From positions 1 to 36,685 of IMG/VR virus record IMGVR_UViG_3300005337_000035: 36,685 bases of DNA. One strand, given 5' to 3'. Below, piece after piece: positions 1,853 through 28,679 of the stretch. Each line of letters starts with the position of its first letter. Positions within the stretch are counted from its first letter, which is position 1. The notes under the pieces were generated by a model. That model was not told the origin of the DNA. It did not search any database and saw nothing but the letters and a program-made list of their open reading frames with translations. Made by a program: the position numbers and the translations under genes. The DNA comes from a virus.

Positions 1853-1859
1853 CCATACC

Positions 1860-4010: not shown

Positions 4011-4035
4011 CGGGCGTCCGATTTGCACGGCGCCT

Positions 4036-4052: not shown

Positions 4053-4059
4053 CGTGGTA

Positions 4060-9257: not shown

Positions 9258-9304
9258 CGTAGCTGCCGACGATCATGCGGTTGTGGGGAATGGCGGAGGA
9301 TAGT

Positions 9305-9310
9305 TAGGCT
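9305..9310 (+). promoter_or_regulatory. -10 box for a leaderless XRE gene
   Basis: TAGGCT in the context AGTTAGGCTGT, seven bases before ATG 9318, with no Shine-Dalgarno. The same 11-base context recurs at 12791, again divergent from a copy of promoter A. Confidence 0.6.
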
Positions 9311-9317
9311 GTACACC

Positions 9318-10776: not shown

Positions 10777-10996
10777 ACAGCCTGACCCGTTGATGGTCAC
10801 CCTGCGCCGGATGCGCAGGGCAGCGAACATGACGCAGATGGATCTGGGTTTGCGGATCGGTTCGGATGGGGCGCAGGTGTCCCATTGGGAGCGGGGGGAG
10901 ACGACACCTTCCATACCGAAGGTGCGGCTGCTGTGCGAGGTCCTCGGCGGGGACCTGGTGATCGTGCCGAAGGGCTGGCTGCCTCCCGTAGAATGA
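10769..10996 (+). CDS. Mini-XRE regulator
   Basis: 75 residues, overlapping the previous gene by 8 bases. Helix-turn-helix about residues 9-60 (VTLRRMRRAANMTQMDLGLR, VSHWERGETTPSIPKVRLL). It then ends in a hydrophobic beta-strand (GDLVIVPKG). The WERGxTTPS motif and the strand are shared with the gene at 27340, so the two are probably paralogues. Likely a small dimeric DNA-binding protein. Confidence 0.8.
   Translation: MPRQPDPLMVTLRRMRRAANMTQMDLGLRIGSDGAQVSHWERGETTPSIPKVRLLCEVLGGDLVIVPKGWLPPVE
10989..10994 (+). promoter_or_regulatory. -10 box overlapping the XRE stop codon
   Basis: TAGAAT, a perfect TAGRRT box, overlaps the stop TGA (10994-10996). It would drive the genes starting at 11024, with a leader carrying GGGAGG. 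Confidence 0.5.
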
Positions 10997-11287: not shown

Positions 11288-11391
11288 ACTTCGTCTGCGA
11301 GCACTGCAAGGCTGAACCGCACGACTTCCGGCCGAAGGAGTGCCCCGGCGGGACGCGGTGTGACTGCCGGCATCGGCAGCCGAAGCAGTGA
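11284..11391 (+). CDS. 35-residue Cys/His mini-protein
   Basis: ATG 11284 overlaps the previous stop and the frame ends with TGA 11389-11391. CEHC near the N-terminus and CPGGTRCDCRH near the C-terminus give five Cys and several His, enough for one zinc site. Very small, so the case rests on the ATGA coupling and the Cys pattern. Its stop codon supplies the TG of the downstream extended -10 promoter. Confidence 0.6.
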   Translation: MNFVCEHCKAEPHDFRPKECPGGTRCDCRHRQPKQ

Positions 11392-11401
11392 TAGTCTGAC
11401 T
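11389..11401 (+). promoter_or_regulatory. Promoter P4, fourth copy of TGATAGTSTGACT
   Basis: TGATAGTCTGACT, identical to P1 and P3 nearly 10 kb away. -10 hexamer at 11392-11397, start expected near 11404. Followed directly by an inverted repeat (GGTGGCGG 11405-11412 with CCGCCACC 11441-11448), which would form a 5' hairpin in the transcript. Confidence 0.65.
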
Positions 11402-11454
11402 ATCGGTGGCGGCATGCGGACCGGGCACGCCGGGCTGGCACCGCCACCGCTCAA

Positions 11455-11544
11455 GGGGACGGAACGGTCCTGCCGCGCTTGATCGGCGCGGCAGCGGATG
11501 CCTGATCAGCATCTGCGTCCGGGGTTCGATTCCCCGGGTCTCCA
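11455..11544 (+). ncRNA. tRNA/tmRNA-like RNA with G3-U70 and perfect T arm
   Basis: A canonical T arm (CGGGG, TTCGATT, CCCCG at 11520-11536) is followed by GGTCTCC and discriminator A (11544). GGGGAC (11455-11460) can pair with GTCTCC, including a G3-U70 wobble, the alanine identity element. The D arm is missing; in its place is GAACGGT, close to the start of actinobacterial tmRNA, which in M. tuberculosis (from memory) begins GGGGCUGAACGGUUU. Two perfect hairpins follow: a 9-bp stem (11470-11478 with 11486-11494, loop TTGATCG) and an 8-bp stem with one GU pair (11494-11501 with 11509-11516, loop CTGATCA). Position 7 with 66 is a G-G mismatch and CCA is not encoded. It may be a reduced tmRNA-like domain, a decoy, or an aberrant tRNA. 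Confidence 0.5.
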
Positions 11545-11570
11545 CGTAAGCCGGTCCCAGTCAGACCAGG

Positions 11571-11601
11571 AAAAGGTGCACCTTGAAGGGGTGCACCTTT
11601 T
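11571..11601. terminator. Bidirectional terminator
   Basis: AAAAGGTGCACC (11571-11582) pairs with GGTGCACCTTTT (11590-11601). A-tract before and T-tract after make it work in both directions: for the tRNA-like RNA on the plus strand and for the glycosyltransferase gene on the minus strand. Confidence 0.9.
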
Positions 11602-11602
11602 C

Positions 11603-12721
11603 TTATGCGCCGATCAGTGTCTTGCTCCCCACCAGCGGCGCCCCGTGCTCGATGTCGTAGGCGTACTGCCAGGCCTCCATCCACCGCCAGGCGTGCAGTT
11701 CAGCGGTCTGCGTCTCCGCGTAGGCGTGCCCGGCTGCACCTAGTTCCCGGCGCAGGCTGGGATTTTCGATCAGGTCCTTGGTGTACCGGTACCACTGCTT
11801 CGGCTTCTCGGCGAGGATCCCACCGCCGCTGGCCGCAGTGATCCGGGCGTACTCCGGTAGCGGGGACGCGATGTAGGGCACGCTGACCGCACTCATCTCC
11901 AAACACTTCAGCCTGGACTTGGCTGCATTGAAACGAGTGTTCGACAGCGGCGCCCAGCCCACTCCCAACCTCGCCACCGTAGACGCCCAATGCTTCATCG
12001 AGCAGGCACCGGTGGCTTTCATCCGAGCCAGCCCCAGCTGCCGGGCAACCTCCTCCTCATACGGTCCGGCCTGCAGAAACTGGTAGCCGTCGTTTTCAAG
12101 GCGCTGCGCGGCGAATCCGGTGACCATCAGATCGTCGGGGTGGGTTTCGATGCTGCCGGGCCAGCCGAATGTCGGGGAATCCACGTGCCCCATGGACAGG
12201 TAGACCTCGGGGATGTAGTTGTCCAGGACAATGCACCGGCCGGGTTTGCCGTACACCTTCACCAGGGCTTCGGTGCTGACCGTCATCAAGGTGACACCTT
12301 CCGCCGCGACCCGGTTCGCTTCCCACGTGTACGGAGAGTCGGACTTGGGGTGCAGGTTGATGTACGCCTTGTTGGACGGGTGGATGCAGGTGAAGTCGTC
12401 GTCGGCGTCCATCACTACCGTGTAGCCGGCCTGGCGGAGCAGGGGTATCGCGGCGGCGTGGACAGGGTTGACGACCCGCTGGAAGACCAGCACGTCCGCT
12501 TCGGGGCCCTGGACCTTGGTGACCTTGCCGGAGGTGTCGGCGAACACCTTGATCGGCATCGGCTTGTCGGGATCGTGGATGGTGATGTCGTAGCCGAGTT
12601 CCTGCAGATACAGGCCGGCGTGCACAAGGCGGTAGCGGCCACAGCCCCCAAGATCAGCGGGCAGAATGTGTACCTTTAGCCTATCTGCCATTAGTATGCC
12701 CGATTTGCTGGATGCTGTCAA
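11603..12721 (-). CDS. GT-B (GT4-like) glycosyltransferase
   Basis: 372 residues if started at TTG 12721, which follows GGGAGACG; the alternative ATG 12691 begins the domain directly (MADRLKVHILPADLGGCGRYR) but lacks a ribosome binding site. The N-terminal Rossmann part contains HILPADLGGCGRYRLVHAG. The C-terminal part has FNAAKSRLKCLEMSAVSVPY, then GGILAEKPKQWYRYTKDLIE and LRRELGAAGHAYA, the typical GT4 nucleotide-sugar binding region. It probably adds a sugar to a virion protein, phage DNA or host glycan. It is divergent from the epimerase gene and shares its control region. Confidence 0.8.
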   Translation of the reverse strand: MTASSKSGILMADRLKVHILPADLGGCGRYRLVHAGLYLQELGYDITIHDPDKPMPIKVFADTSGKVTKVQGPEADVLVFQRVVNPVHAAAIPLLRQAGYTVVMDADDDFTCIHPSNKAYINLHPKSDSPYTWEANRVAAEGVTLMTVSTEALVKVYGKPGRCIVLDNYIPEVYLSMGHVDSPTFGWPGSIETHPDDLMVTGFAAQRLENDGYQFLQAGPYEEEVARQLGLARMKATGACSMKHWASTVARLGVGWAPLSNTRFNAAKSRLKCLEMSAVSVPYIASPLPEYARITAASGGGILAEKPKQWYRYTKDLIENPSLRRELGAAGHAYAETQTAELHAWRWMEAWQYAYDIEHGAPLVGSKTLIGA

Positions 12722-12733: not shown

Positions 12734-12750
12734 GTAGTCAGCCTACCTAT
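12734..12750 (-). promoter_or_regulatory. Promoter B for glycosyltransferase (copy of A)
   Basis: GTAGTCAGCCTACCTAT, identical to 9241-9257. Minus-strand -10 TAGGCT at 12745-12740, about 12 bases of leader before TTG 12721. Confidence 0.6.
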
Positions 12751-12792
12751 GTTTCTTCGGGAGTCGATGAAAGCCTCGCCAAACGCTGCCAG

Positions 12793-12798
12793 TTAGGC
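12793..12798 (+). promoter_or_regulatory. -10 box for epimerase gene
   Basis: TAGGCT within AGTTAGGCTGT, the same 11 bases found before the XRE gene at 9318. Leader carries GAGGGAGAAAC before ATG 12826. Confidence 0.55.
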
Positions 12799-12825
12799 TG
12801 TTCGCAACGTTGACGAGGGAGAAAC

Positions 12826-13641
12826 ATGAGAGTTGCAGTGACCGGCTCGGCCGGCTTCATCGGAACAGCAACGAAGGCGGCATTGGAGGCGGCGGGTCAC
12901 GAGGTCATCCCGTTCGACCGGGTTGACGGCAATGACATCCTCGGCGACCTGTCGGGCTTGGAAGGCGCCGACCGGGTGCTGCACTTGGCCGGGGTGCTGG
13001 GCACCTCGGAGCTGTTCGACACGGCCGAAGAGGCTATCGAGATCAACATCACGGGAACGCTGCGGATCCTGCAGTGGTGCAAGGAGAACGGTGCCGGCTA
13101 CACCGGCGTGACGCTGCCGACCGCGTTCTACGGCGTCTACAGCATCACGAAGCACGCCGCGACAGCGTTCGCCACCGCCTGGCACCGGGCATACGGGGTG
13201 CCGACGTCCACTGTCATCGCGTTCAACGTGTACGGCCAGGGCCAGAAGTGGGGTCCGGGGCATCCGCAGAAGTTCGTGCCCACGTTCGCCACCAGGGCGT
13301 GGATGGGGCTGCCGCTGCAGATCTGGGGCGACGGCACGCAGACCATGGATGTGGTGTCGACGGGCGACCTGGCCCGCATGTTCGCCGAGGCGGTCAACCA
13401 CGACGATGATGTCGTGTTCGACGCTGGCTGTGGCTTGGAGATCAGCGTCATCGACTTCGCGAACTACGTGAACAAGATGACCGGTAACGAGGCCGACGTG
13501 GAGTTCCTGCCGATGCGTATCGGTGAGACCCCGACGCGCATCAAGGCCATCGGGCGGGGCTGGGATCGGCTGGACTGGAAGCCGGAACTGAACTGGGAAG
13601 ATGTTGACGCAGCGATCGAGTGGTACAAGGACAAGGTGTAG
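12826..13641 (+). CDS. NAD-dependent epimerase/dehydratase (SDR)
   Basis: 271 residues. Rossmann signature TGSAGFIG (6-13), NAD-binding continuation (VLHLAGV, about 51-57) and the catalytic Y105-SITK-K109 motif of extended short-chain dehydrogenases that act on nucleotide sugars. NVYGQGQKWGPGHP and the C-terminal GRGWDRLDWKPE stretch fit UDP- or dTDP-sugar epimerases. It likely supplies the activated sugar for the neighbouring glycosyltransferases. At 271 residues it is somewhat shorter than the usual 310-340. The stop TAG is followed at once by a TAGGCT box. Confidence 0.85.
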   Translation: MRVAVTGSAGFIGTATKAALEAAGHEVIPFDRVDGNDILGDLSGLEGADRVLHLAGVLGTSELFDTAEEAIEINITGTLRILQWCKENGAGYTGVTLPTAFYGVYSITKHAATAFATAWHRAYGVPTSTVIAFNVYGQGQKWGPGHPQKFVPTFATRAWMGLPLQIWGDGTQTMDVVSTGDLARMFAEAVNHDDDVVFDAGCGLEISVIDFANYVNKMTGNEADVEFLPMRIGETPTRIKAIGRGWDRLDWKPELNWEDVDAAIEWYKDKV

Positions 13642-13731
13642 TAGGCTAGTTCTGCGCTAGGCAACCAGCTGCACTGCTTGCCCATGTTGGTTCTTGAAGG
13701 CCCACCGTCGCCTCCCCTTCGGTGGGCCTTC
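13642..13731 (+). ncRNA. Possible small RNA between epimerase and terminator
   Basis: TAGGCT (13642-13647) begins right after the stop codon TAG (13639-13641). A transcript from about 13654 would hold a GGCAA/TTGCC hairpin (13661-13682) and end at the strong terminator. No open frame of substance. The arrangement copies that of the other small RNA units, but the -10 context differs, so it may simply be the 3' UTR of the epimerase gene. Confidence 0.3.
13696..13731. terminator. Bidirectional terminator
   Basis: GAAGGCCCACCG (13696-13707) pairs perfectly with CGGTGGGCCTTC (13720-13731), loop of 12. It lies between convergent genes and overlaps the stop codon of the minus-strand XRE gene by two bases. 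Confidence 0.85.
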
Positions 13732-14068
13732 AGCCATTCAGCAGGTCGCACACCTGCGTGCCGGTGACCTGGGCAATGTCTTGCAGGGTGCCGATGGAGA
13801 CGCCCTGCTTGCCGGATTCCAGGTTGGTGATCGTTCCCCTGGTGCGCTTGATCGCGGCGGCCAGGTCAACCTGGCGCATCCCTGCCGCGAGGCGCGCCTG
13901 GCGCACGTTGATGTGCAGGCGCGGGAAGCGGTTGTGCGTGTCTGCGGGGAACGAGTCGTACGGGTCCCGCTGGCTGCTGCGGACCGGGTCGGTGCGGTCA
14001 ACTGGTTGTACCGTAACAATATCTTCTGCTGCAATAGTTGCTGGTACAACAAACGGGTTAGGGATCAT
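13730..14068 (-). CDS. XRE regulator
   Basis: 112 residues from ATG 14068, preceded by GGGAGGCCCT; an in-frame ATG at 14095 is rejected because that site would be wasted. N-terminal 45 residues are disordered-looking. The C-terminal half is a helix-turn-helix: LHINVRQARLAAGMRQVDLA, AIKRTRGTITNLESGKQGVS, then a helix ending in QVCDLLNG. Its own TAGGAT promoter lies upstream, which separates it from the long sugar operon. It may regulate the glycosylation genes (inference). Confidence 0.8.
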   Translation of the reverse strand: MIPNPFVVPATIAAEDIVTVQPVDRTDPVRSSQRDPYDSFPADTHNRFPRLHINVRQARLAAGMRQVDLAAAIKRTRGTITNLESGKQGVSIGTLQDIAQVTGTQVCDLLNG

Positions 14069-14098
14069 AGGGCCTCCCAGCCTTAGGTTTGTCACACC

Positions 14099-14104
14099 AT
14101 CCTA
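14099..14104 (-). promoter_or_regulatory. -10 box TAGGAT for the XRE gene
   Basis: Minus-strand TAGGAT, a perfect TAGRRT box, 31 bases upstream of ATG 14068. No -35 box evident. Confidence 0.5.
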
Positions 14105-14124
14105 AGAGGTGATCATGCGGGGAG

Positions 14125-14409
14125 CTAGTCGCAGTCCACATCTTCGGCGTCGGCGAAGAAGCTGAAACTGACCTGCATCCGCAGGCCCAACCCGGCCGCC
14201 CAGTGCTCCGCTTTGCGGATCGACATGTTGCCACGGGACTGCTCCATCGCATAGACCGCGTCGTGGCTGACCGGCGGATCCATGGCCTCCCCGACTTCCC
14301 GCTGCGTCATGCCGAGCAGCTCCCGATGCCGCGTCAGCATGCGGCGCACCTCATCGGTCAACTCCCCCACCGGGAACGGTGGCGGCCCCTGCGCCTTCCT
14401 CCACACCAT
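14125..14409 (-). CDS. Mini-XRE regulator
   Basis: 94 residues from ATG 14409, overlapping the stop of the upstream glycosyltransferase gene by one base (TGATG). The helix-turn-helix covers about 22-75: EVRRMLTRHRELLGMTQREV, HDAVYAMEQSRGNMSIRKAE. A hydrophobic strand (LGLRMQVSFSFF) and an acidic tail follow. The strand after the fold is shared with the genes at 10769, 27105 and 27340. The ORF can be read into the upstream gene, but coupling defines the start. Confidence 0.8.
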   Translation of the reverse strand: MVWRKAQGPPPFPVGELTDEVRRMLTRHRELLGMTQREVGEAMDPPVSHDAVYAMEQSRGNMSIRKAEHWAAGLGLRMQVSFSFFADAEDVDCD

Positions 14410-15008
14410 CAAGCATCCCCTTGGCCGGGCTTGCCGGAAGAGTTCATGCCGTGCAGGTGCCACTTCCAGGTGCGTTCTGGCAGGTGGGTGATGTGGTGGT
14501 TCCACTGCACCGCATACTCCGACATGCGCAGCACGAAGATCCAGTCATCGTTCAAGCAGGCCGCCGTGGCACCTTCGCCTGCGGTGGGGAAGCCGCCGGC
14601 CGCGATGGCGGCGCCCCTTCGAACCATGACCGTGGTGGTGGTGTGGTGCGGTGTCGCCGGGTTGAACGGCTTACCGAAGTGCCCCGACTTGGCAAAGGGG
14701 TCCGGGCCGCCGACGGGTTCAAACCACGAGTAGGCCAGGATGCAGTCAAGATCGGCATCCATGACCTGCTCCAGTTTCTGCAGGTGGGTGGGGAGGAACT
14801 CGTCATCACTGTCGAGAAGTGCCACGTACCTGCCCGAAGCTGCCCGCAGCCCTTTCTGCTTCGCCCACCCGGCGCCCCGGCGTTCCGTGTCGAGGATGAC
14901 GATCACTTCATCCGGCTGCCTGGTCTGGCTGCGCACCGAAGCTAATGCCCGGTCAAGCATCCGGCCCACCCTTGCGGGGTGGGCCGGGATTACAACGCTG
15001 ATAGTCAC
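14409..15008 (-). CDS. GT2 family glycosyltransferase
   Basis: 199 residues from GTG 15008. Classic GT-A start (TISVVIPAHPARVGRMLDRA, SVRSQTRQPDEVIVI) and the metal-binding D66-S-D68-D69 in YVALLDSDDEFLP. GGFPTAGEGATAACLNDDW gives the acceptor-side acidic residues. Shorter than many GT2 enzymes but the core is complete. It is followed directly by an XRE gene. Donor and acceptor unknown. Confidence 0.85.
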   Translation of the reverse strand: MTISVVIPAHPARVGRMLDRALASVRSQTRQPDEVIVILDTERRGAGWAKQKGLRAASGRYVALLDSDDEFLPTHLQKLEQVMDADLDCILAYSWFEPVGGPDPFAKSGHFGKPFNPATPHHTTTTVMVRRGAAIAAGGFPTAGEGATAACLNDDWIFVLRMSEYAVQWNHHITHLPERTWKWHLHGMNSSGKPGQGDA

Positions 15009-15012
15009 GTGA

Positions 15013-15240
15013 TCAATCTATCGGAGGACTCATGCGGGAGAGGCGCCACTTGCAGAACAGGTATGGCGTAATGGTGGCGCTGGCAAGGAAGCCGAATATC
15101 ACCAAGAACGTCGGGATCCCGAAGAAGATCCACACCAGGGTGGCGGGAACAGCGAGGCAGGCCAGGATAAGGGTCATTCCGCCTGACATGTCACGGCCCA
15201 CTTCGAGGTTGTTGCGCCGGTCCCATTCCTTGTCGATCAT
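15013..15240 (-). CDS. Small two-helix membrane protein
   Basis: 75 residues from ATG 15240, coupled by ATGA to the gene upstream. A charged N-terminus (IDKEWDRRNNLEVGRDM) precedes two hydrophobic segments (about 21-42 and 44-61) rich in Ile, Leu, Val and Phe. C-terminus basic then polar (CKWRLSRMSPPID). Membrane role in the sugar operon unknown; it could anchor or transport. Confidence 0.7.
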   Translation of the reverse strand: MIDKEWDRRNNLEVGRDMSGGMTLILACLAVPATLVWIFFGIPTFLVIFGFLASATITPYLFCKWRLSRMSPPID

Positions 15241-15575
15241 TCGTCGTCTCCGATGCCTGTGAAGGCGGGGCATTCGGGGGTGTGGTCAACCACGGACCCC
15301 ACGATCGACGCGGCGTCCACGGGGAACGGCACGATCGCCGCCGAGCTGCACGGCATGTGGACCAGGGCGGCTTGGCCGTCGGCTGCCTGGTCGATGTGGT
15401 AGCTGCCCATGATGCCAGTCAGGTAGTCCACCTGCGCCTGGCCCCAGGATAGGAACAGCGACCGGGCGAGGGTGTGGGCCACGTCGGGCAGGTCGTCGAG
15501 GTTGCCGAAGGTGTCTTTGTAGCCCTGCAGCCCGGCGAGCAGGGTTTCGGTGAACTTGTCGCCGACGCTGGTCAC
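15237..15575 (-). CDS. Hypothetical protein
   Basis: 112 residues from GTG 15575, overlapping the RHH gene stop (GTGA). Helical N-terminal half (FTETLLAGLQGYKDTFGNLD, LARSLFLSWGQAQVDYLTGI) and a less ordered C-terminus with two Cys. No family recognised. Confidence 0.65.
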   Translation of the reverse strand: MTSVGDKFTETLLAGLQGYKDTFGNLDDLPDVAHTLARSLFLSWGQAQVDYLTGIMGSYHIDQAADGQAALVHMPCSSAAIVPFPVDAASIVGSVVDHTPECPAFTGIGDDE

Positions 15576-15781
15576 AGGAACTTCACCTCACTTTCCATTC
15601 CGCCGGGGCGGACAAGGACCAACCTGGACCCGTTCGCCATTTCCGCTTCGAGGTAGGCGTACATCTGCAGGGCGCGGTTGACGCAGTCCGTCTTCGTCAG
15701 CCCTGACGTGCGGGCCACTTCTTCCAGGGCTGTGACGGCTTTGGGACTCAGGTTCATGGTGATCCTGGCCGAGCTGGTCAT
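15572..15781 (-). CDS. Ribbon-helix-helix DNA-binding protein
   Basis: 69 residues, starting by ATGA overlap. The first strand ARITMNLSPK, helix A VTALEEVARTSG, turn LTKTDCVNRALQMYAYLEAE fit the Arc/CopG/MetJ fold, which binds DNA as a dimer through the strand. The C-terminal tail (SRLVLVRPGGMESEVKFL) resembles RHH proteins found in actinobacteria. It could regulate the operon it lies in. No toxin partner is evident nearby. Confidence 0.8.
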   Translation of the reverse strand: MTSSARITMNLSPKAVTALEEVARTSGLTKTDCVNRALQMYAYLEAEMANGSRLVLVRPGGMESEVKFL

Positions 15782-16029
15782 GCCGCATCTTCCTCAAAGT
15801 TGGCTGACAGTTCGCAGTTGTCGGGGCAGCAGAAGTGCGGCACGGCAACCTTGCCCAGGTTCTTTACCACCTTGCACCAGGTCCAGTAGTGGCCCTGGTT
15901 GGAGTTGCCGGTGTGATGCTTGCACCGTGCGCACACGGTGCAGCGGCAGACGAAGGTGCCGTCCGGGCCCATGTAGACCGGCGCCGGTGGGGGTGCATCG
16001 CAGCCGGGGGCGTTGGTGGGGATGTTCAT
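15778..16029 (-). CDS. Cys/His-rich protein
   Basis: 83 residues, coupled by ATGA on both sides. CRCTVCARCKHHTGNSNQG, then WTWCK and HFCCPDNCEL give ten Cys and several His in the core, enough for two zinc sites. N-terminus Pro-rich (GCDAPPPAPVYMGP). Probably a small zinc-binding protein. Function unknown. Confidence 0.7.
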   Translation of the reverse strand: MNIPTNAPGCDAPPPAPVYMGPDGTFVCRCTVCARCKHHTGNSNQGHYWTWCKVVKNLGKVAVPHFCCPDNCELSANFEEDAA

Positions 16030-16343
16030 GTCGTGGGCTCCTTGGTGACCCAGGTGCGAGCCATGACGACCTTCGGCCAGACGCGGTACACCTCAACGGT
16101 GGGTCCGTCGTCCCAGGGGCATTCGTTTTCCTGGTTTTCGGTCAGTCCTGCCTGCCAGTCGATGCTCCAGAAAGTGCCGTCGGCGATGCGTTCGATGATG
16201 GTGCTGATGCTTTGGTGCCAATCGCCACAGTCGCCCTCCTCCTGGGAGATGTGCATCCACTCCCCGTTCTCCGAAAGGTCGTTTGCGTCGAGTTGAACCA
16301 GTTCCTCGGCCAGGTCACTGTTGATGGTCAACTTCTCGGTCAT
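16026..16343 (-). CDS. Acidic hypothetical protein
   Basis: 105 residues from ATG 16343, directly after the previous stop, with GGGGAGG seven bases upstream inside the preceding gene. Acidic and Trp-rich (DLSENGEWMHISQEEGDCGD; TFWSIDWQAG). The C-terminal end is a predicted beta-sheet (VEVYRVWPKVVMARTWV). No recognised family. Confidence 0.65.
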   Translation of the reverse strand: MTEKLTINSDLAEELVQLDANDLSENGEWMHISQEEGDCGDWHQSISTIIERIADGTFWSIDWQAGLTENQENECPWDDGPTVEVYRVWPKVVMARTWVTKEPTT

Positions 16344-16433
16344 TTAGAACCCTCCCCACTGTCGGGCCAGCATGAACAGCCCGAACATCCAGACGATCAA
16401 ACCTAGGATGATGAGCCGCTGCAGGAGTATCAC
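16344..16433 (-). CDS. 29-residue single-span membrane peptide
   Basis: GTG 16433 to TAA 16344, with GAGG nine bases before the start. After MILLQR it is almost wholly hydrophobic (LIILGLIVWMFGLFML) and ends ARQWGGF. The longer ORF in this frame runs back through the next gene and is not supported. Third of three micro-membrane proteins in a row. Confidence 0.5.
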   Translation of the reverse strand: MILLQRLIILGLIVWMFGLFMLARQWGGF

Positions 16434-16444
16434 GGCCAGCTGCC

Positions 16445-16618
16445 TCACTTGCCGGCCTTGCCGGTCAGCTGCGCGATGCGGGTTTCCTTGGCCCAGATCA
16501 CGCACCACGCCAGGGCAACCAGTAGGCTCAGGCCACCTTTCATCCATTCCCCGAGGGCCAGCCATCCGAGGGCCAGGATGGTGAACACCACGATGATGGC
16601 GATGATTGCTTTCTTCAT
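16445..16618 (-). CDS. 57-residue membrane protein
   Basis: ATG 16618 is preceded by AAGGGGAGATC, a strong site; stop TGA 16445. Two hydrophobic segments (about 4-21 AIIAIIVVFTILALGWLA and 27-41 GGLSLLVALAWCVIW) with a basic C-terminus (KETRIAQLTGKAGK). The clean ribosome binding site makes it convincing. Role unknown. Confidence 0.7.
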   Translation of the reverse strand: MKKAIIAIIVVFTILALGWLALGEWMKGGLSLLVALAWCVIWAKETRIAQLTGKAGK

Positions 16619-16633
16619 GATCTCCCCTTGGCG

Positions 16634-16741
16634 TTAGTGGCGCTGGGCTGCGATTTCGGCTGCGCCGACTGCGATGAGCAGCAGAATCACGACGAACATG
16701 ATCGCTGCACAGCCGATACCTCCGCGCTGAGTGCTAGGCAT
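16634..16741 (-). CDS. 35-residue single-span membrane peptide
   Basis: ATG 16741 with GGGGAGGCA directly before it; stop TAA 16634. MPSTQRGGIGCAAIM leads into a hydrophobic segment (FVVILLLIAVGAA) and a short polar end (EIAAQRH). First of the three micro-membrane genes, placed just after the DUF616-type gene. Confidence 0.65.
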   Translation of the reverse strand: MPSTQRGGIGCAAIMFVVILLLIAVGAAEIAAQRH

Positions 16742-16750
16742 TGCCTCCCC

Positions 16751-17443
16751 TTACTTCAAATGGTGGCCGAGGTGTGTCCAGGAGTCTTCTCCGTCGTGCC
16801 ACGGCAGCCGATAATCCCACCTATCAGCCTGGCTAGCAAGGTGGAGGAGGACGGGCAGGCTGACCTGGTCCTGGTGGCTGCGGGTGATGCACTCCCACCA
16901 CCAGTCACCCATCAACTTGTCGACCCATTCCACCCCGTTGCGACGGATATAGAAGCCGGTGGCGATCAGGCCGAAGTGGTCGGGGTGCCCGATCCCTGCA
17001 TAGTAGGCAGACTGGGCAAGGATGTGCGGGGCTTCATCGGCGTACCGTGGCAGCAGCGAAGAGTAGGCCGCTTCGTCGTAGATGCAGTCACGCCACGGAT
17101 GGCGCATCACCGCCAGGTCCAGGTCCGCGATGGCGGCGATGCATTTACCAATGAACCATGGACCCTCTTCGGTGATCGTCATCGAAGCATCCAGCCAGAT
17201 CGTCGTGTCGAATTCGCCCAGCCCGGCATGCATCTTCCAGAACTTGTGGTTCAGCATCGGCCCGGTCCGCTCCGGCTTGCCGAGCAGCGTCGCGATGCTG
17301 TGCTGCGCCACCCGCACCTCCCAACCGGGCGCTTTCAGGTTCGGATCATCGGTGTACATGATCGCCGGGCACGGCAGGTCATGGGGCAGCGGCGGTGCAT
17401 CGTTGTAGCCGCCGTAGATCGCCGAATAGATAGCGATACTCAC
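16751..17443 (-). CDS. DUF616/TOD1-like glycosyltransferase
   Basis: 230 residues from GTG 17443 (GTGA overlap). IYSAIYGGYND (5-15), MYTDDPNLKAPGWEV (29-43), LNHKFWKMH (64-72), the metal-binding-type WLDAS (83-87) and HPWRDCIYDEAAY match the pattern of DUF616 proteins, predicted GT-A glycosyltransferases. These enzymes usually act on surface or protein-linked sugars. It is coupled to an XRE gene. Acceptor unknown. Confidence 0.75.
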   Translation of the reverse strand: MSIAIYSAIYGGYNDAPPLPHDLPCPAIMYTDDPNLKAPGWEVRVAQHSIATLLGKPERTGPMLNHKFWKMHAGLGEFDTTIWLDASMTITEEGPWFIGKCIAAIADLDLAVMRHPWRDCIYDEAAYSSLLPRYADEAPHILAQSAYYAGIGHPDHFGLIATGFYIRRNGVEWVDKLMGDWWWECITRSHQDQVSLPVLLHLASQADRWDYRLPWHDGEDSWTHLGHHLK

Positions 17444-17841
17444 CGCTGCCCTTTCCGCTTCGAAGGCTTCTTCCGGGTCTTGCGGGGAGTGTCGCGCGTC
17501 GCTTCCCGGCGGGCAGCGGCCTGCACCATCGCCGGGTTGCGTCGCCGCTCCTCATCGGACTCGTCGACCCACATCCGCACATCGGTCAGGTAGGGAGTCA
17601 TGGTGAACTCGAACCTGACGATCTCGGCATACTGCAGGAACCGGTAGAACGGGATGTTGCCGCCGTTCTCCCAGTACCCGATGGTTGACGCGGCGACAGT
17701 GCTGGTCGGGGTCGACATGTAGCGGGCCACGGCAGCCTGCGACATGCCCAGCTCGATACGCCGGTTACGCAGGGCGTCGATGAAGCCGGCGGCCAGCTCC
17801 TCGTAGGCGAAGTCGTTCAACGGCTCCAGTGGCTGTGTCAT
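17440..17841 (-). CDS. XRE regulator with basic tail
   Basis: 133 residues from ATG 17841, overlapping the methyltransferase stop (ATGA). The helix-turn-helix spans about 20-75 (GFIDALRNRRIELGMSQAAV, ASTIGYWENGGNIPFYRFLQ). A strand (RFEFTMTPYL) and a long, very basic tail (RDTPRKTRKKPSKRKGQR) follow, which may add non-specific DNA contact. It lies inside the sugar operon. Confidence 0.8.
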   Translation of the reverse strand: MTQPLEPLNDFAYEELAAGFIDALRNRRIELGMSQAAVARYMSTPTSTVAASTIGYWENGGNIPFYRFLQYAEIVRFEFTMTPYLTDVRMWVDESDEERRRNPAMVQAAARREATRDTPRKTRKKPSKRKGQR

Positions 17842-18518
17842 GACGCCTGCTCCAGCCAGGCCCGGACCATGCTGAACGCCTCTTCGGGGTCGATGGCGTC
17901 GGCGCGGGTGAGGATCTCGTTGGGGACCGGCATGTAGTCGCAGATCATGTCCCAGGCGATTTCGCGCTCCGGGTGCACGCTGTGGTCCAGGCTGTTGGGG
18001 AACACGAGCAGCTTGCCGCAGGGCTGCACGTCAACGAGGTGCATCTGCATGGTCGGCCGGCGTTCCTGCAGCAGGCCCCAGATCTTCCACGTGTCCCCGG
18101 CCCACGCGCCTTCGTGAGCGTCCCTGGTGGCCTCGTAGTTGTTCCTCGGCAGCACGTCGTCGAAGCAGATGATGGTGCGCGGCCCGGCGAGTGTCTCCGC
18201 GCCGAGGAAGTCCTGCCACACGTCTTCGATGAGGTGGCTTCCGTCGATGAGCACCAGGTCCAGTTCGGACTCATCGGTTTCCGGGTTGACGAAGTCGGGC
18301 ACGTGGACGTGGAAGAAGTCGTACGAGGTGCACTCGTACAGCCCGACGCGCAGTCCACCGACGTGCATCGCGTTGCTGGTGTCGATGTCTACCCCGGCAA
18401 TCTTGCCGGCGTGCGGCAGGGCCAGCTCCAGCGACTTGCCTGCCTGGACACCGATTTCCAGGTAGACGCGCGGCTTCGTGATCTCGTACAGCTTGGCTAG
18501 GAATTCGTAGTGATCCAT
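17838..18518 (-). CDS. SAM-dependent methyltransferase (class I)
   Basis: 226 residues from ATG 18518, six bases after GGGAGG. Motif I is VYLEIGVQAGKSLELA (18-33), the acidic end of strand 2 is AGVDIDTS (41-48) and DLVLIDGSHLIEDV (87-100) is the post-motif region seen in TylF/Methyltransf_24 enzymes that methylate sugars or hydroxyls. A longer ORF extends upstream through other genes and is not supported. In this context methylation of a sugar is likely (inference). Confidence 0.85.
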   Translation of the reverse strand: MDHYEFLAKLYEITKPRVYLEIGVQAGKSLELALPHAGKIAGVDIDTSNAMHVGGLRVGLYECTSYDFFHVHVPDFVNPETDESELDLVLIDGSHLIEDVWQDFLGAETLAGPRTIICFDDVLPRNNYEATRDAHEGAWAGDTWKIWGLLQERRPTMQMHLVDVQPCGKLLVFPNSLDHSVHPEREIAWDMICDYMPVPNEILTRADAIDPEEAFSMVRAWLEQAS

Positions 18519-18520
18519 AA

Positions 18521-18850
18521 TCATCCTCCCGGGCGCCAGGGCAGCGCCAGTCCATCCCCGGCGAGCCGGGGAATAATGTGCAGATGTAGATGAAACACCG
18601 TCTGCGTTGCCTCGGCACCCGCAGAGGTGATGATGTTGAACGGCGGCCGGGCCAACTCCCCAGCCCGCGCCATGGCCTGACCGGCGATGTGCGGCGACTC
18701 CGAAGCATCCCGGATGTGCGCGGTTGGGATGACGAGCAGGTGCCCGTCGGTGACCGGGTTGAGCGGGACGATCGCGATTGCGTCGACCCATTGGCGGACG
18801 ACCGTGGCCGGTTCGGTGCCAGCGATGATGGCGCAGAAGACGCAGCTCAT
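18521..18850 (-). CDS. HIT family nucleotide hydrolase/transferase
   Basis: 109 residues from ATG 18850 (ATGA overlap). CVFC (3-6) with H45 and the H87-L-H89-L-H91 active site in HLHLHIIPR form a full HIT domain, with SAGAEATQTVFH before it. HIT proteins cleave or transfer nucleoside phosphates, and the GalT branch acts on nucleotide sugars. Between a GT2 gene and a methyltransferase it may release or recycle nucleotides in sugar transfer (inference). All key residues are intact. Confidence 0.85.
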   Translation of the reverse strand: MSCVFCAIIAGTEPATVVRQWVDAIAIVPLNPVTDGHLLVIPTAHIRDASESPHIAGQAMARAGELARPPFNIITSAGAEATQTVFHLHLHIIPRLAGDGLALPWRPGG

Positions 18851-19542
18851 CCTCCCGGCCACCATCTGATGGGGCCCCAGATTGATTCGTATGTTGCCCG
18901 GTCCCGCCCGGCCTGCTCAGCCAAGGCGCCAACAGTGGTGCTGTTAGCCCTGGTGTTCTGCACTTCGTAGCCGCTGATGAGCACCGTGCCACCGGTGACC
19001 CTGGCCCGCATGTCGATGTCGGTGTCTCCGAACCACCAGCGCAGATCCTCGTTGGCCAGTGGGCCAGTGGGACCGATGATGAACGCCCAGCCCTGCAGCC
19101 GGTCACCGACGTGGCGAATGGGGGCGGTAAGGTGATACCAGCCACGCTGGGGGCCGCCCGAACTCCCCGCCACGGCGCCGGTGGTCTTCATCGCCGATTC
19201 GACCGCGTCGAACCAGCCGACGGGGACGATAGCGTCGTCGTTGAGGACCGCGACCCAGGCTTCCTCGCCCTCGTTGACCAGGGCGAAGTCTCTGGCCTTG
19301 CGGATGCCTTCGTTCCACAGGAAGGACAGGTTGGGAGGCTGCATCGGGCGGTGCAACTTGCAGAAGAAGGTGTCGCTTGTCGAGGTCTCCATGACGTCGC
19401 AGATGTGTTCAACGGCGATGGCGTCGAGTTCCTTGTCGCCGTTGTTGACGATGATGATGCCGTCGACTTGGCCGGCGATGGATTCGATGCAGCGGATCAG
19501 GTCGTCGGGGCGGTTTCTGGTGGGGATGACAGCGAAACGCAT
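18847..19542 (-). CDS. GT2-like glycosyltransferase
   Basis: 231 residues. FAVIPTRNRPDDLIRCIESI (3-22), VDGIIIVNNGD (26-36), LWNEGIRKARD (75-85) and VLNDDAIVP (99-107, N101-D102-D103) form a GT-A fold with an NDD in place of the usual DxD. WWFGDTDIDMRAR adds the second acidic site. It starts the long minus-strand sugar operon. ATG 19542 has a -10 box six bases upstream and no Shine-Dalgarno, so it is probably leaderless. Confidence 0.8.
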   Translation of the reverse strand: MRFAVIPTRNRPDDLIRCIESIAGQVDGIIIVNNGDKELDAIAVEHICDVMETSTSDTFFCKLHRPMQPPNLSFLWNEGIRKARDFALVNEGEEAWVAVLNDDAIVPVGWFDAVESAMKTTGAVAGSSGGPQRGWYHLTAPIRHVGDRLQGWAFIIGPTGPLANEDLRWWFGDTDIDMRARVTGGTVLISGYEVQNTRANSTTVGALAEQAGRDRATYESIWGPIRWWPGG

Positions 19543-24600: not shown

Positions 24601-24739
24601 CGGGCGTGGCGGACGTGCCGAGCCGGAACCAGTAGCCCCTCTCCTCACCCAGCGACAGGGCGTATGGCTGCTCCACGATGGGCACCCAGTCCATGCCGAG
24701 AACTGTTGGCGCGTAAGGAGAGTATGCGTCGGTGGCCAC
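21620..24739 (-). CDS. Large minor tail protein with lectin-like domain
   Basis: 1039 residues from GTG 24739 (TAGTG overlap with the tape measure stop). Beta-rich throughout. About 610-810 (DTFSRTVSNGWGTADSGLAW, then RYWLAFEFNGNWVGAKVWRE) looks like a concanavalin/laminin-G-like carbohydrate-binding domain common in actinophage tail proteins. A fibronectin-like part (VESTYQVRLCHELDFCGNWS) follows. Likely surface-exposed near the tail tip and involved in host recognition. Confidence 0.8.
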   Translation of the reverse strand: MATDAYSPYAPTVLGMDWVPIVEQPYALSLGEERGYWFRLGTSATPVTARVYVAEPPATALTYDLPGINVYPAGQEDQLGPIKQVTIPCTFVTPAADTATTLNAASSAVEALYSPSDAGFAIFSSATGPTVTLNFGVSYFSAQLTGKRILDVEFLTIVDLATGDTGINVGLASSAASTTAGVVTDTGLPSISSAADSNIQTVDLGEYTPFWGTTTALAGDTYPWNYSALLRMDPSTTAAQRVGITMGVAGATNFDVFYAAIRVTYAAETRTAMGARSSGDYTPQRGWGPAGTAFSIPLLDPTYSFAPTMAVGDYVITATYGTYPDSLFYYLGDEAQIGALHQLYELPEPGIHGISITKLLEPGDVRQAVHTDQIPAISLHTAGAVMPDTHGYYKQIAAPVYSGVTAQQGIINNAAVASTSYNLARLYARRFGPTDSPLGLREVGGSGASAIITVAEFDALPEIADGWKQVDFDFQYSPPIPTFTTSGVSTWEAFSSTAVGGQWQVLGARAPNVTGLNFAAVGPNQWLPPTTYGGTTAEATWDQGSGTATLDRPGDLVMMFASVPTVTGFSITPRTLPVTANIDCVEEPAGIPTGIFYEELGWSTGSLGVYDTFSRTVSNGWGTADSGLAWVIANGLASEVSVNGSTGVVTSSTINNRHILQQNVPILNGQMRALISSSQEPVSTGGVSVQLRGRTLGLATYVFAELTWAASGFFQLETGAFAGGQTASDSIVNMLDPPQEVNSRYWLAFEFNGNWVGAKVWRETDDEPPDWQVETVLSNATNITTVGPVSVHANIGSSYNGPTPVTFTVDDFSANPMPGLGAWEIQRTDRWTDYQTIMAATTFPTAIFNDLEPRVGVESTYQVRLCHELDFCGNWSATVADTPPAPGVDGDCVDGSVLIFTSNVNQDGSGALAHIAVWDGTPSENFEFLEGGMVRYQPMYNRDYQVAFHGTERGGETFDRVLLMNNAAISLINYEQLFQYLRDLAWSDLPYVAVRDEHGSRWLASIRIPGGTVQPPSRIPQFSQISITEVTATAYPVDP

Positions 24740-26988
24740 TATGCTGCCGCCCTCATCTGTGCACGCATGGTTTGCTGGCTGACGGTGTTAGCGATCGCGG
24801 ACCCGGTGGCGTTGCCCATCGATGTCGCCACCGCCGCCGTCGGGGACCCGTTGAAGTTCTGCTGGATCGCTCCACGCCCGAAGTTGAACGTGTTCGGATT
24901 CGCGTTGACGGAGATCAGGCCGGTCAATGCGGAAAGGTCGCCGAGGACCTGGGCGGCCCCGGCGGCGATGCCCTCCCCGAACCCTTGCATGACGGCGACA
25001 CCGGCGGGTTTGAGGATTTTCTTGTCCTTGTCCTCCGGGCCTTTCCAGGAGGGCAGCATGTCGGTGACCCAGTTGAGCAGGCCCGTAAGTCCAGGGATGG
25101 CAGATTTGATGCCGTCGATAAGCCCGTTGATCATGCTGAGGCCGGCATTGAATAGCACGTTGCCGTTGAAGAAGCCGGCAATGCGCTCAGGGATCGACTT
25201 GACGAAGTTCAATATGTTGGTAGCGCCGGTTTCAATGGACGACCTGGCATTCGTCCAGAACCGGGCAAGGGCTTGCACGATCTTCTGGAAAATGTCGTAG
25301 AACCACTGATAGATGCCTCGGACGAAGTTGAACACCCAGATACCCAGCGGCATGAAGAAGTTAATGATTGACCGGGCGAGGTCGGTGACGAAGTTGAGGG
25401 CGTTCGTCTTCAATGCGAGAAGCTGCTGACCTACCCACAAAACGAAATCGCCGATGGCTTGTGTGGCGGTGGCGCCAAAGTTGTAGATGCCGCCGGCCAG
25501 GTTGCTAATCCAGTCCAGGATCCCGCCGAAGAAGTCGGCAATGGCCGGACCTGCGGTGTTGTACAGCCAGTTCGCCATGTCGTTGATGCCGGCGAAGATA
25601 AGTCCGAGACCAATAAACAGGCCCGCGAAGGTGATAATTGCCAGCTCGGTAATCTTCAAAAAGCCCGCAAGGGCCTCGTGTCCCTCTTTGCTGGCCAGGA
25701 AGTCGGCAATCCATTGCAGCGCTGTTTGCAGAATGGTAAGGAAGGTGTCGCCTTCGCCCGACGAATTGAGCCAGGCGAGGAGGTCCTTCACCATCCCGAT
25801 GACGGTGAGGAGGATCTGGCCGATGATGCCGAGAGTGTCTTGTGCGTTCTTCAGGAATTCCTTGAACGAGCCATCGCTGATCGACGTGTTGATGAACTCG
25901 GTCAACTGATCCAGGATGAACCCGATGAACAGGAATAGGTTTTCCAGGAACGGCATCGACTCGATCATCAAGCCGACCAGGGCGTCGAAGAATCGCAGCA
26001 GCGGTCGGCCCAGGGTCTTGACGATCTGAGCTACCGCTGGGAAAACTTCCTGAACGAATTCCTTGAACCGTGGGGATTCGAGGAACACGCCGAAGTCTTT
26101 GAAGAACTTCCCGAGTTCGGTGGCAACCAGAACAACGCCGTCACGGATGGGCCCGGCGAGGTTGGTGACGATCTTGTCGAAGCCGTCCCCTGCTGCGGTG
26201 AGAAATGCCTCCGAGGCGCGGTCACCGATGTCCTTCCAGATTTCCTTGATGCGCCCCAGCAAGGTAATGAAAGCAAGCGTCGCAGGGCTCAGCCCAGCGA
26301 TCGCCGCTTCATATTCTTCGACAGTCTTCGCATCGAATACGGCTTTGGCTTTCTCTCCCAACGTGCCGAAGATGGCATTGAGGGATAGGGAGACAACGCC
26401 GATGACGGTCAGGATGCCAGGGATCAATGTGAGGAGGGCGATGACAGGGTTCAGGACTTGCGACAGGCCGATGACGGCACCGATGAGTGCCGTTATGCCG
26501 GCGATGATGAACGGCACGGTGAATTCGTTGCTGCCCAGCTTGCCGATGCTGGAGAACGCGCTGCCCAGGCCGGATGAGATGTCGGAGCCAATGTCGGTAA
26601 CCCAGCTGAGGATGCTGCTGCGGTTGCGTCGTAGGCCTTCGTCGAGGCCATCGCTGTTGGTGGTGAACGGGATGTTGATGCCTTCGAAGTTGCCGTCGCC
26701 GAGGTCGCCGAGGCCTTGGCGCACTGCGGCAGCTGCGCGGCGACCACCTTCCTCCCCACCTTTGGCGAGGCCTTCGGCCAGCTCATCACCGATGTCGTCG
26801 GCGCGGTCCCTGACAGCGAGTTCCACGCCGTCGCTGTAGGCGTTGCCGGCGTCGCGCCCATGCTGGCGCATGACAGCTTCGGCCTTGATGAGGGCGGCTT
26901 CGAGTTCCGCCACCAGTTCCCGTTCGAACGGGCCAGCGTCGGCATGGATCTCGATGAAGGCGTCACCCAGGGTGGCCACGTAGATCAT
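24739..26988 (-). CDS. Tape measure protein
   Basis: 749 residues from ATG 26988 (starts MIYVATLGDAFIEIHADAGP); a longer frame to 27078 crosses the promoter region and is rejected. Start is typical of actinophage tape measure proteins: HADAGPFERELVAELEAALI. Hydrophobic segments about 140-200 (VPFIIAGITALIGAVIGL, ALLTLIPGILTVIGVVSLSL) and many amphipathic helices follow, including LPSWKGPEDKDKKILKPAGV near the C-terminus. It sets tail length inside the tube and is one of the longest genes, as expected. No muralytic motif seen. Confidence 0.9.
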   Translation of the reverse strand: MIYVATLGDAFIEIHADAGPFERELVAELEAALIKAEAVMRQHGRDAGNAYSDGVELAVRDRADDIGDELAEGLAKGGEEGGRRAAAAVRQGLGDLGDGNFEGINIPFTTNSDGLDEGLRRNRSSILSWVTDIGSDISSGLGSAFSSIGKLGSNEFTVPFIIAGITALIGAVIGLSQVLNPVIALLTLIPGILTVIGVVSLSLNAIFGTLGEKAKAVFDAKTVEEYEAAIAGLSPATLAFITLLGRIKEIWKDIGDRASEAFLTAAGDGFDKIVTNLAGPIRDGVVLVATELGKFFKDFGVFLESPRFKEFVQEVFPAVAQIVKTLGRPLLRFFDALVGLMIESMPFLENLFLFIGFILDQLTEFINTSISDGSFKEFLKNAQDTLGIIGQILLTVIGMVKDLLAWLNSSGEGDTFLTILQTALQWIADFLASKEGHEALAGFLKITELAIITFAGLFIGLGLIFAGINDMANWLYNTAGPAIADFFGGILDWISNLAGGIYNFGATATQAIGDFVLWVGQQLLALKTNALNFVTDLARSIINFFMPLGIWVFNFVRGIYQWFYDIFQKIVQALARFWTNARSSIETGATNILNFVKSIPERIAGFFNGNVLFNAGLSMINGLIDGIKSAIPGLTGLLNWVTDMLPSWKGPEDKDKKILKPAGVAVMQGFGEGIAAGAAQVLGDLSALTGLISVNANPNTFNFGRGAIQQNFNGSPTAAVATSMGNATGSAIANTVSQQTMRAQMRAAA

Positions 26989-26989: not shown

Positions 26990-27022
26990 CTACCGGTAGG
27001 CAGGCTACATATCGTAGCCTGC
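26990..27022. promoter_or_regulatory. Operator C: two palindromes over the tape measure promoter
   Basis: CTACCGGTAG (26990-26999) is a perfect palindrome. Next to it GCAGGCTAC (27000-27008) and GTAGCCTGC (27014-27022) form a perfect 9-bp inverted repeat around ATATC. The minus-strand -10 TAGCCT (27007-27002) lies within it. The repeat resembles promoter A at 9241. It sits between the tape measure gene and two divergent XRE genes, the usual place for an XRE operator. Confidence 0.6.
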
Positions 27023-27045: not shown

Positions 27046-27074
27046 TTGCGCTGTACCTGGAAGACGCCTATTAT
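27046..27074 (+). promoter_or_regulatory. Promoter for the XRE pair (-35 and -10)
   Basis: TTGCGC (27046-27051), 17-base spacer, TATTAT (27069-27074). It is one of only two promoters here with both boxes. ATG 27105 follows after AGGGAGG. Confidence 0.65.
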
Positions 27075-27104
27075 CCACTTACACGGATACAGGGAGGATG
27101 GCAT

Positions 27105-27339: not shown

Positions 27340-27570
27340 ATGGACCGCGAAGAAGCGAACACGTCTCTAGCCGAGATGATTGCCAGGATGAAAAGTCGCC
27401 GTCAGGCCCTAGGCCTGACACAGAAGGCGGCAGCCGAGAAAATGGGAACCGTGAAGTCCAACATCTCCTACTGGGAAAGAGGAAAGACGACCCCGAGCGC
27501 GTCGGCGCTGATCCTTTACGCCGATGCGCTCGACTGGAAGATCCAGCTGGTCGACAAGTTCCCTAGCTAG
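27340..27570 (+). CDS. Mini-XRE regulator 2 (moron)
   Basis: 76 residues, four bases after gene 1. Helix-turn-helix: ARMKSRRQALGLTQKAAAEK, SNISYWERGKTTPSASALIL, then the strand DWKIQLVDKF. The WERGKTTPS motif is shared with the gene at 10769. The pair could form a heterodimer or antagonists, as in lambda CI/Cro-like switches, but there is no lytic/lysogeny gene nearby to support that. Its last 8 bases overlap the convergent tail gene. Confidence 0.8.
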   Translation: MDREEANTSLAEMIARMKSRRQALGLTQKAAAEKMGTVKSNISYWERGKTTPSASALILYADALDWKIQLVDKFPS

Positions 27571-27757
27571 GGCGGTGTCCACGGGCGTGAAAGTCGTTCA
27601 GGTGCATGAATGCCATCGCGTCCGTGGACATGCCCCGCTCAATCCCCACACTGGCCATGGCGGAACGCAGGGAGATCGTGTAGGAGTCCTGGCATACACG
27701 GCAGTCGGGGTGCATGCGCCCCCAGCCGTCTTCGTACCACTCCAACCGCTTCGTCAC
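27563..27757 (-). CDS. Small protein before the tape measure
   Basis: 64 residues from ATG 27757 (ATGA). WYEDGWGRMHPDCRVCQDSY has one CxxC pair. It lies in the usual place between tail chaperones and tape measure. Function unknown. Converges with, and overlaps, the XRE 2 gene. Confidence 0.65.
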   Translation of the reverse strand: MTKRLEWYEDGWGRMHPDCRVCQDSYTISLRSAMASVGIERGMSTDAMAFMHLNDFHARGHRPS

Positions 27758-28362
27758 CCGACACCTCCGCGCATTTGGGCGAGGAATACATCCTCTTCCC
27801 GCTTCGCGTTGATCGCAACGTCTACCGGGGTGTCAATGCCCGCCGGTGGCTTGTTGAGGCGGACCAGGAAACCGTTGCGGTCCTCGGGTTTCATGTGCAG
27901 CATCACCACGGCCAGCAGGGCATCAATCCAGGCCTGTAGGGAGAGGGCGGCGGCGTTGGTGCCTCGTATGGCGAGGTAGCCGCCGATGGTGTCCCAAGCC
28001 CCGCTGACTGTGGCGACCAGGCCGATGGTGAACCACCATGGCCTGCCGGACAGCATCGTCACGAGTTCCATGATGGCCTCGGACAAAGCGTCGAAGTCGA
28101 CGGTGCCGGCGGCGAGCCCTTCAATTACCTGCTGGGCGTCGCCCTCGTGGGCCAGGGCGAGGAAGTCGCCGAGGAAGTCATCGGACAGCAGTGCCCCCAG
28201 CCACGCCGATGCGGGCAGCGCGGCGAAACGCAGGTCCACTCCGGACACGGTGATGGTGACCGGCCACGGTTGCAGGGCGAACAGCATCGACGTTGCCGTC
28301 GATGGGGGCGTGGCGGCCTCTTTGCTATCGGGTGCGGCGGACCGCCTTGGCCGGCTTGGCAC
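27754..28362 (-). CDS. Tail assembly chaperone, GT-type second product
   Basis: 202 residues in the frame after the first chaperone, +1 relative to it, overlapping by 38 bases. It continues SVTITVSGVDLRFAAL-like strands, LGALLSDDFLGDFLALAHEG and RNGFLVRLNKPPAGIDT. In most siphoviruses this part is made by programmed frameshifting as a G-GT fusion. Here GTG 28362 follows GGGAGGGCGGCA, a good ribosome binding site with six-base spacing, so independent translation is also possible. No stop occurs in the shared window. Confidence 0.7.
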   Translation of the reverse strand: MPSRPRRSAAPDSKEAATPPSTATSMLFALQPWPVTITVSGVDLRFAALPASAWLGALLSDDFLGDFLALAHEGDAQQVIEGLAAGTVDFDALSEAIMELVTMLSGRPWWFTIGLVATVSGAWDTIGGYLAIRGTNAAALSLQAWIDALLAVVMLHMKPEDRNGFLVRLNKPPAGIDTPVDVAINAKREEDVFLAQMRGGVG

Positions 28363-28666
28363 TGCCGCCCTCCCGGTCCTTGAAAGCGTCCAGCAGGGCC
28401 ATCACTTCGGGAATGTCGCGTTCCCCGGTGGACAGCACGTCAACGATGTAGGCCCGGTCGGATTCGTTGAACAGGTTCGAGATGATGTTGATGAAGTGGC
28501 CGAGGGCTTCGATGGCTTCCCCGGACAGTGCCCCACCAACGCTGGATCGCTTGATCAGGTTCGTGTAGTGGGACAGCATGGCGAGCTGGCCGGGCAGCGG
28601 CAGCTTGATGACAAGGCTGCGCTCTCCCAACTGCACGACACGAGTCTCGCGCGTATCAGTAGTCAC
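28325..28666 (-). CDS. Tail assembly chaperone, G-type
   Basis: 113 residues from GTG 28666. VVQLGERSLVIKLPLPGQLA, HYTNLIKRSSVGGA, VLSTGERDIPEVMALLDAFK. Place (before the tape measure, after the neck genes), length and the overlapping second frame identify it as a tail tape chaperone. The start has no Shine-Dalgarno; TAGTAT (28679-28674) lies seven bases upstream and its TAG is the stop codon of the preceding gene. This predicts a leaderless, separately started mRNA. Confidence 0.75.
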   Translation of the reverse strand: MTTDTRETRVVQLGERSLVIKLPLPGQLAMLSHYTNLIKRSSVGGALSGEAIEALGHFINIISNLFNESDRAYIVDVLSTGERDIPEVMALLDAFKDREGGSAKPAKAVRRTR

Positions 28667-28673
28667 GCTACTG

Positions 28674-28679
28674 ATACTA
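28674..28679 (-). promoter_or_regulatory. -10 box overlapping upstream stop codon
   Basis: TAGTAT, minus strand. The stop codon TAG of the gene at 28677 supplies its first three bases. Exactly seven bases separate it from GTG 28666, with no ribosome binding site. Confidence 0.5.

Follow-up and report, generated by a model that had tools for sequence, protein, structure and literature searches.

The window, that is, the whole stretch of DNA analysed here, is an entire IMG/VR record of 36,685 bases, linear in form, which may represent a fragment of a genome with part of it missing. It has the look of an actinobacterial siphovirus, and the host is probably an actinobacterium. The major capsid protein has a match in Actinoplanes phage phiAsp2 (46% over 65% of the protein), weaker protein matches are mostly to Mycobacterium, Gordonia, and Microbacterium phages, and a search of bacterial genomes with the capsid protein found no relatives. 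The late genes point leftward: after the capsid gene (34579) come those for the major tail protein, the tail chaperones, and the tape measure, and then those for tail proteins and glycosyltransferases. The rightward genes include a RusA-like resolvase and one with a RecE-like match. A run of glycosyltransferase and methyltransferase genes lies beside the tail genes (13730-19542, minus strand), where it likely serves sugar decoration. The genes and RNA units associated with the element under study, including the four leftward units behind sites A to D, are as follows:

6835-9225, minus strand: tail fibre or glycine-rich tail protein gene, downstream of site A
11603-12721, minus strand: GT-B glycosyltransferase gene, downstream of site B
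12826-13641, plus strand: nucleotide-sugar epimerase gene, downstream of the rightward promoter at B
24739-26988, minus strand: tape measure protein gene, downstream of site C
28325-28666 and 27754-28362, minus strand: tail assembly chaperone genes, downstream of site D, assigned by synteny and by tblastn to relatives
1484-1860, plus strand: three tandem units, each of promoter, structured RNA, and terminator
11392-11605, plus strand: promoter, tRNA-like structured RNA, and strong terminator hairpin (11570-11602)

Ahead of the tape measure gene lies a perfect inverted repeat at 27000-27022 (GCAGGCTAC-ATATC-GTAGCCTGC), whose 9-bp arms pair perfectly around a 5-nt spacer, exactly as first read. 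Perfect repeats with arms of at least 9 and spacers of 3-8 number six in the window as against 1.0 in dinucleotide shuffles, and four of the other five are likewise noncoding; the 27000-27022 repeat alone is unusual and not decisive. An intrinsic terminator at 27000 was considered and rejected, no T run following the repeat. The near copy that the original prediction placed ahead of the tail fibre gene does exist, but its true position is 9246-9265 (CAGCCTAC-CTATC-GTAGCTG) and its right arm is one base short, whereas the supposed half copy at 12734 is in fact a 17/17 exact match to site A (GTAGTCAGCCTACCTAT). The 23-bp repeat was rejected as a common operator because only C has an intact copy of it, and the core that stays constant lies 9 nt off its centre.

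What the sites share is a smaller unit, a 13-bp dyad of the form GTAG-N5-CTAC (sense strand GTAGSSTGMCTAC), whose left half contains a -10-like hexamer of the actinobacterial type, TAGNNT. A sister form, TGATAGTSTGACTR, occurs at 1484, 1595, 1708, and 11392, before the structured RNA units. Together, the two forms make up an imperfect 13-bp dyad with the consensus RTAGNSTGMCTRB and the inner dyad AG-N5-CT, found at eight noncoding places, several of the noncoding gaps resting on rough gene calls:

9241-9253, minus strand: site A core, GTAGGCTGACTAC; 17-bp form at 9241-9257, three half-sites at 9241-9262, -10-like TAGGCT
12734-12746, minus strand: site B core, GTAGGCTGACTAC; 17-bp form at 12734-12750, identical to that of A
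26996-27008, minus strand: site C core, GTAGCCTGCCTAC; CTAC-N5-GTAG-N5-CTAC spans 26996-27017
28659-28671, minus strand: site D core, GTAGCGTGACTAC, before the tail chaperone genes
1483-1495, plus strand: sister element ATAGTCTGACTGG, a TGN-TANNNT extended -10 before RNA unit 1
1594-1606, plus strand: sister element ATAGTGTGACTGT, before RNA unit 2
1707-1719, plus strand: sister element ATAGTCTGACTGG, before RNA unit 3
11391-11403, plus strand: sister element ATAGTCTGACTAT, in the perfect dyad GATAGTC-T-GACTATC (11390-11404), before the tRNA-like RNA unit

Every occurrence coincides with or adjoins the start of a gene or RNA and is in sense orientation: four precede leftward genes (tail fibre, GT-B, tape measure, and tail chaperone), four precede rightward structured RNAs, and at every one of the eight the left-half TAGNNT shares its strand with the unit that follows. 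Site A lies 15 nt before the tail fibre ATG (9225) and site C 7 nt before the tape measure ATG (26988). GTAG-N5-CTAC occurs in the window at A, B, C, and D exactly. Site D, which the original prediction overlooked together with the four rightward sites, is centred in a 25-bp perfect repeat, GTATCAGTAG-CGTGA-CTACTGATAC (28653-28677), with symmetrical 10-bp arms; the dyad arms are perfect at D and at 11390. Positions 3/11 and 4/10 of the dyad are complementary at all eight sites, and the outer pairs at five to six of the eight. A third half-site, at 9-bp phasing, yields the 27000-27022 repeat in C and the near copy in A, such that half-sites 1 and 2 form that repeat and half-sites 2 and 3 the conserved core. 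The full arrangement CTAC-N5-GTAG-N5-CTAC is exact at A and C and has one mismatch at B and D, with 0.5 matches expected at two mismatches; CTAC-N5-GTAG, initially chosen as a control pattern, was counted in the element because its two matches agree in number with A and C, both of which contain it. The motif is absent from the window before the capsid and major tail genes, and therefore not all late genes are covered.

Motif frequency stands well above the shuffles: TAGNNTGACT has seven matches (rightward at 1484, 1595, 1708, and 11392; leftward at 9252, 12745, and 28670) versus 0.2 in shuffles (maximum 2 of 300); for the 13-bp consensus the counts are eight versus 0.06, the consensus being derived, except in the hold-out tests, from the same sites. 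Since a consensus built from sites always fits its own sites, weight was placed on the hold-outs. With a matrix built from A, B, and D, C comes fourth among ~73,000 positions and is the top match outside the training set. On the strand of the downstream gene, A and B read ATAGGTAGGCTGACTAC and C reads ATATGTAGCCTGCCTAC; with 3 mismatches allowed, three such sites were found where 0.03 would be expected. At 17 bp each, the window's longest exact direct repeats correspond to the two motif forms, and between A and B the divergent elements are identical while the spacers between those elements cannot be aligned. A blind word search of the noncoding DNA counts against the motif, which came first yet only slightly past the best of 15 shuffles, and thus not clearly beyond them. 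The common operator proposed for A, B, and C is partly upheld: ahead of their leftward genes, the three sites share an element beyond chance whose orientation and register agree and which overlaps a -10-like hexamer, as control by a common regulator would demand; its unit is the 13-bp dyad rather than the 23-bp repeat.

Each site overlaps a -10-like hexamer; at C, for which the overlap was originally noted, this is TAGCCT at 27007-27002. Mycobacterial promoters carry TANNNT at -10 and no -35 motif, and a TGN extension, TGNTANNNT, marks the strong ones (PMC3898074). In the window, TAGNNT is present at all eight sites and is preceded by TGN at four; the four rightward sites read TGATAGTST, which is the form TGNTANNNT. 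The divergent AGTTAGGCTGT described as common to A and B is likewise there, in the following two positions:

9302-9312, plus strand: AGTTAGGCTGT, divergent promoter of XRE 9318
12791-12801, plus strand: AGTTAGGCTGT, divergent promoter of the sugar epimerase gene

At the first of these, TAGGCT ends 7 nt before the ATG of XRE 9318, a spacing that fits leaderless transcription. The sites are likely to act as promoters because TAGNNT lies on the sense strand in 8/8, in keeping with the mycobacterial TANNNT/TGN rule, and because of the leaderless-type spacing at XRE 9318. They resemble actinobacterial -10 promoters (TANNNT, extended TGNTANNNT, leaderless) in hexamer type, in lacking a -35 motif, and in the 7-nt spacing to the ATG, but differ in an extra conserved GACTRY half that completes the dyad.

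It is conceivable, although rather unlikely, that nothing more than this is present, namely plain host-type promoters (-10 TAGNNT, some TGN-extended) in which a certain sequence is preferred behind the -10, the dyad is a by-product, and a dedicated regulator does not exist. The sense-strand TANNNT at all eight sites and the strong mycobacterial form of the rightward four would agree with such promoters, as would same-hexamer leaderless promoters without the dyad at 1847 and 9305. However, the hexamer is followed by GACT at seven of the eight sites and by GCCT, one base different, at C, which is beyond what sigma alone requires, and the 10-bp arms at D are perfectly symmetrical. A further argument against them comes from a relative, L010, whose capsid and major tail proteins are 71-73% identical to those of the window. 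When the window matrix is run over L010, the best of ~21,000 positions falls 7 nt before the tape measure ATG, as at C, on a longer dyad, GTACAAGTAG-N5-CTACCTATAC, each arm of which is alike to D at 8/10. This dyad scores better on the antisense strand and its sense strand has no TANNNT; therefore, the -10 role is not conserved there, although the dyad is. Sigma has no need of the right half (GACT, CTAC), and L010 has the dyad in the corresponding position but no -10 on its sense strand; both observations point to another factor that recognises the site, in the simplest case an HTH dimer.

GTAG-N5-CTAC was absent from the stretches examined in 14 other, more distant relatives, and TAGNNTGACT had no matches in six relatives, in which the reversed pattern had nine. 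Among other viral contigs, the exact 17-mer found no match, and the sister 17-mer found three single matches in unrelated contigs (44-57% GC, no second site) that were taken as chance. Among the matches listed for a loose 25-bp dyad pattern, most were in AT-rich contigs, and the L010 contig was the only one from the relatives.

The repeats at A, C, and D might instead act in RNA, as hairpins before the start codon that tune the translation or stability of the tape measure and chaperone mRNAs, a proposal we regard as improbable. C and D do fold well (-17.7 and -22.8 kcal/mol, z ~-3) into 9-10 bp stems just before starts, A folds weakly, and the L010 repeat folds too. Yet at site B and at the rightward sites the motif comes with no such hairpin, and the hairpin is centred differently in C/A than in D/L010, while the 13-bp DNA core stays the same. 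In addition, if TAGNNT is the -10, transcripts would start after it and leave the hairpin untranscribed.

Five HTH_3/XRE proteins of 75-121 aa are encoded in the window, two of whose genes (10769-10996 and 13730-14068, minus strand) had been missed at first:

9318-9683, plus strand: XRE (HTH_31/HTH_3), 121 aa, best candidate regulator
10769-10996, plus strand: XRE, 75 aa, second in the rightward cluster of 9318
13730-14068, minus strand: XRE/HTH_3, 112 aa
27105-27335, plus strand: XRE, 76 aa, first of the pair interrupting the late operon
27340-27570, plus strand: XRE, 76 aa, second of the pair

As the original prediction stated, such genes flank two of the sites, A (9318) and C (27105 and 27340). 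The pair next to C runs rightward, against the direction of the late operon in which it sits, with a chaperone-side gene (27563-27757) on one side and the tape measure gene on the other. It has its own promoter-like site, TTGCGC-17-TATTAT (27046-27074). The corresponding two genes are ~45 nt apart in L010, and in the other relatives with matches to the facing ends of both genes, the distance from match to match is ~60-150 nt. None of the relatives compared has the pair between its tail chaperone and tape measure genes, and since there is no room for it there, the pair looks like an insertion and is a weaker regulator candidate. That it should be the master regulator of the three late units first recognised is very improbable. 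It adjoins site C and both proteins are HTH_3, but L010 keeps the operator without the pair alongside, and the dyad at the pair's own promoter is another one, TATCC-N8-GGATA (27072-27089).

Two points favour XRE 9318: the motif-like ATAGTTAGGCTGT in its own promoter, which ranks tenth of ~73,000 positions with the rightward matrix, and the position of site A just upstream. As it lies between site A and this match at its own leaderless promoter, XRE 9318 may regulate itself. The choice is the least certain step of the reading, a guess among five HTH proteins. Neither XRE 9318 nor XRE 27105 has close homologues in phages or viral contigs, and XRE 9318 found no match among solved structures. It has a CxxC...CxxC tail at the C-terminus, zinc-ribbon-like, and a leaderless-type start.

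The occurrence of the same element at about eight gene starts suggests common control by one regulator protein of the phage's own. In the reading that we favour, with somewhat better than even confidence, the sites are dispersed promoter-operators that a dimeric HTH protein of the phage, XRE 9318 being the most plausible one, would bind. The host housekeeping sigma factor would read TAGNNT as its -10 hexamer (TANNNT, without need of a -35), and the surrounding dyad would bind the HTH dimer, which, by covering the -10 element, would shut off or time the promoters. At A and C, the third half-site 9 bp on might admit a second dimer in an alternative register. The single regulator originally envisaged for three late units thus remains plausible, but it would serve at least four late units plus, through the sister form, four RNA units outside the late structural genes, with XRE 9318 a better candidate than the pair beside C. 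A broader version is tentative and, on balance, doubtful: one HTH protein, through a three-half-site CTAC-N5-GTAG-N5-CTAC, would jointly time the fibre, tape measure, chaperone, and glycosylation genes as well as phage small RNAs, the timing being set by a repressor and not by an activator or antiterminator.

Phage-specific operators over promoters are a familiar kind of system, of which this element appears to be a new one. The L5 stoperator consensus is the 13-bp asymmetric GGTGGMTGTCAAG, and this sequence is not clearly enriched in the window, matching 35 times when 3 mismatches are allowed (exactly 3 in every case but one) against 23 expected and 3/100 shuffles reaching 35. Cluster A mycobacteriophage stoperators (L5, Bxb1, and TipsytheTRex) are 13-bp, phage-specific sites that are spread genome-wide, bound by an HTH protein, and mostly in one orientation (PMC9283540, PMC6550527). 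The window sites share with them the 13-bp repeated site and one orientation relative to transcription (8/8), whereas stoperators are asymmetric, number ~26 per genome, and bind a monomeric repressor, and the window element is a dyad of about eight sites that overlaps the -10. None of the window HTH proteins is sized for the cluster A HTH plus stoperator domain, in a genome that may be incomplete. The SAS/ESAS of cluster K mycobacteriophages are also short repeats with inverted repeats just before gene starts (PMC3203893), but SAS (GGGATAGGAGCCC) is tied to translation initiation whereas the window motif is at the -10 position, and GGGATAGGAGCCC is unenriched in the window (12 found, 14 expected at 3 mismatches). 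Lambda-type Cro/CI operators, bound by XRE/HTH_3 dimers, are likewise short promoter dyads with a small XRE gene beside a divergent promoter; they form one clustered switch region, in contrast to the scattered single putative operators of the window, which precede late and RNA units. The window system would work like dispersed phage operators while belonging to neither the stoperators nor SAS/ESAS. Late-gene timing is poorly known in actinobacterial siphophages outside well-studied clusters, and a defined 13-bp putative operator, one phylogenetic footprint at the tape measure gene, and a short list of candidate regulators make it directly testable here.

The element also directs attention to phage RNA units that have gone unrecognised and that share this type of promoter. 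In each of the three tandem units, a TGATAGTSTGACTG promoter is followed by ~90-140 nt of structured RNA and then by a strong, GC-rich hairpin resembling a terminator; none has an Rfam match at the gathering score. ARAGORN calls an uncertain tRNA-Met at 4009-4077 (minus strand), overlapping the end of a predicted gene, and makes no tRNA call for the tRNA-like RNA at 11392-11547 (plus strand). The latter has an acceptor GGGGAC/GUCUCC, a T-loop UUCGAUU, two long extra arms, and a possible GAU anticodon loop, and the 11570-11602 hairpin, with 13-bp arms, separates it from the convergent GT-B gene.
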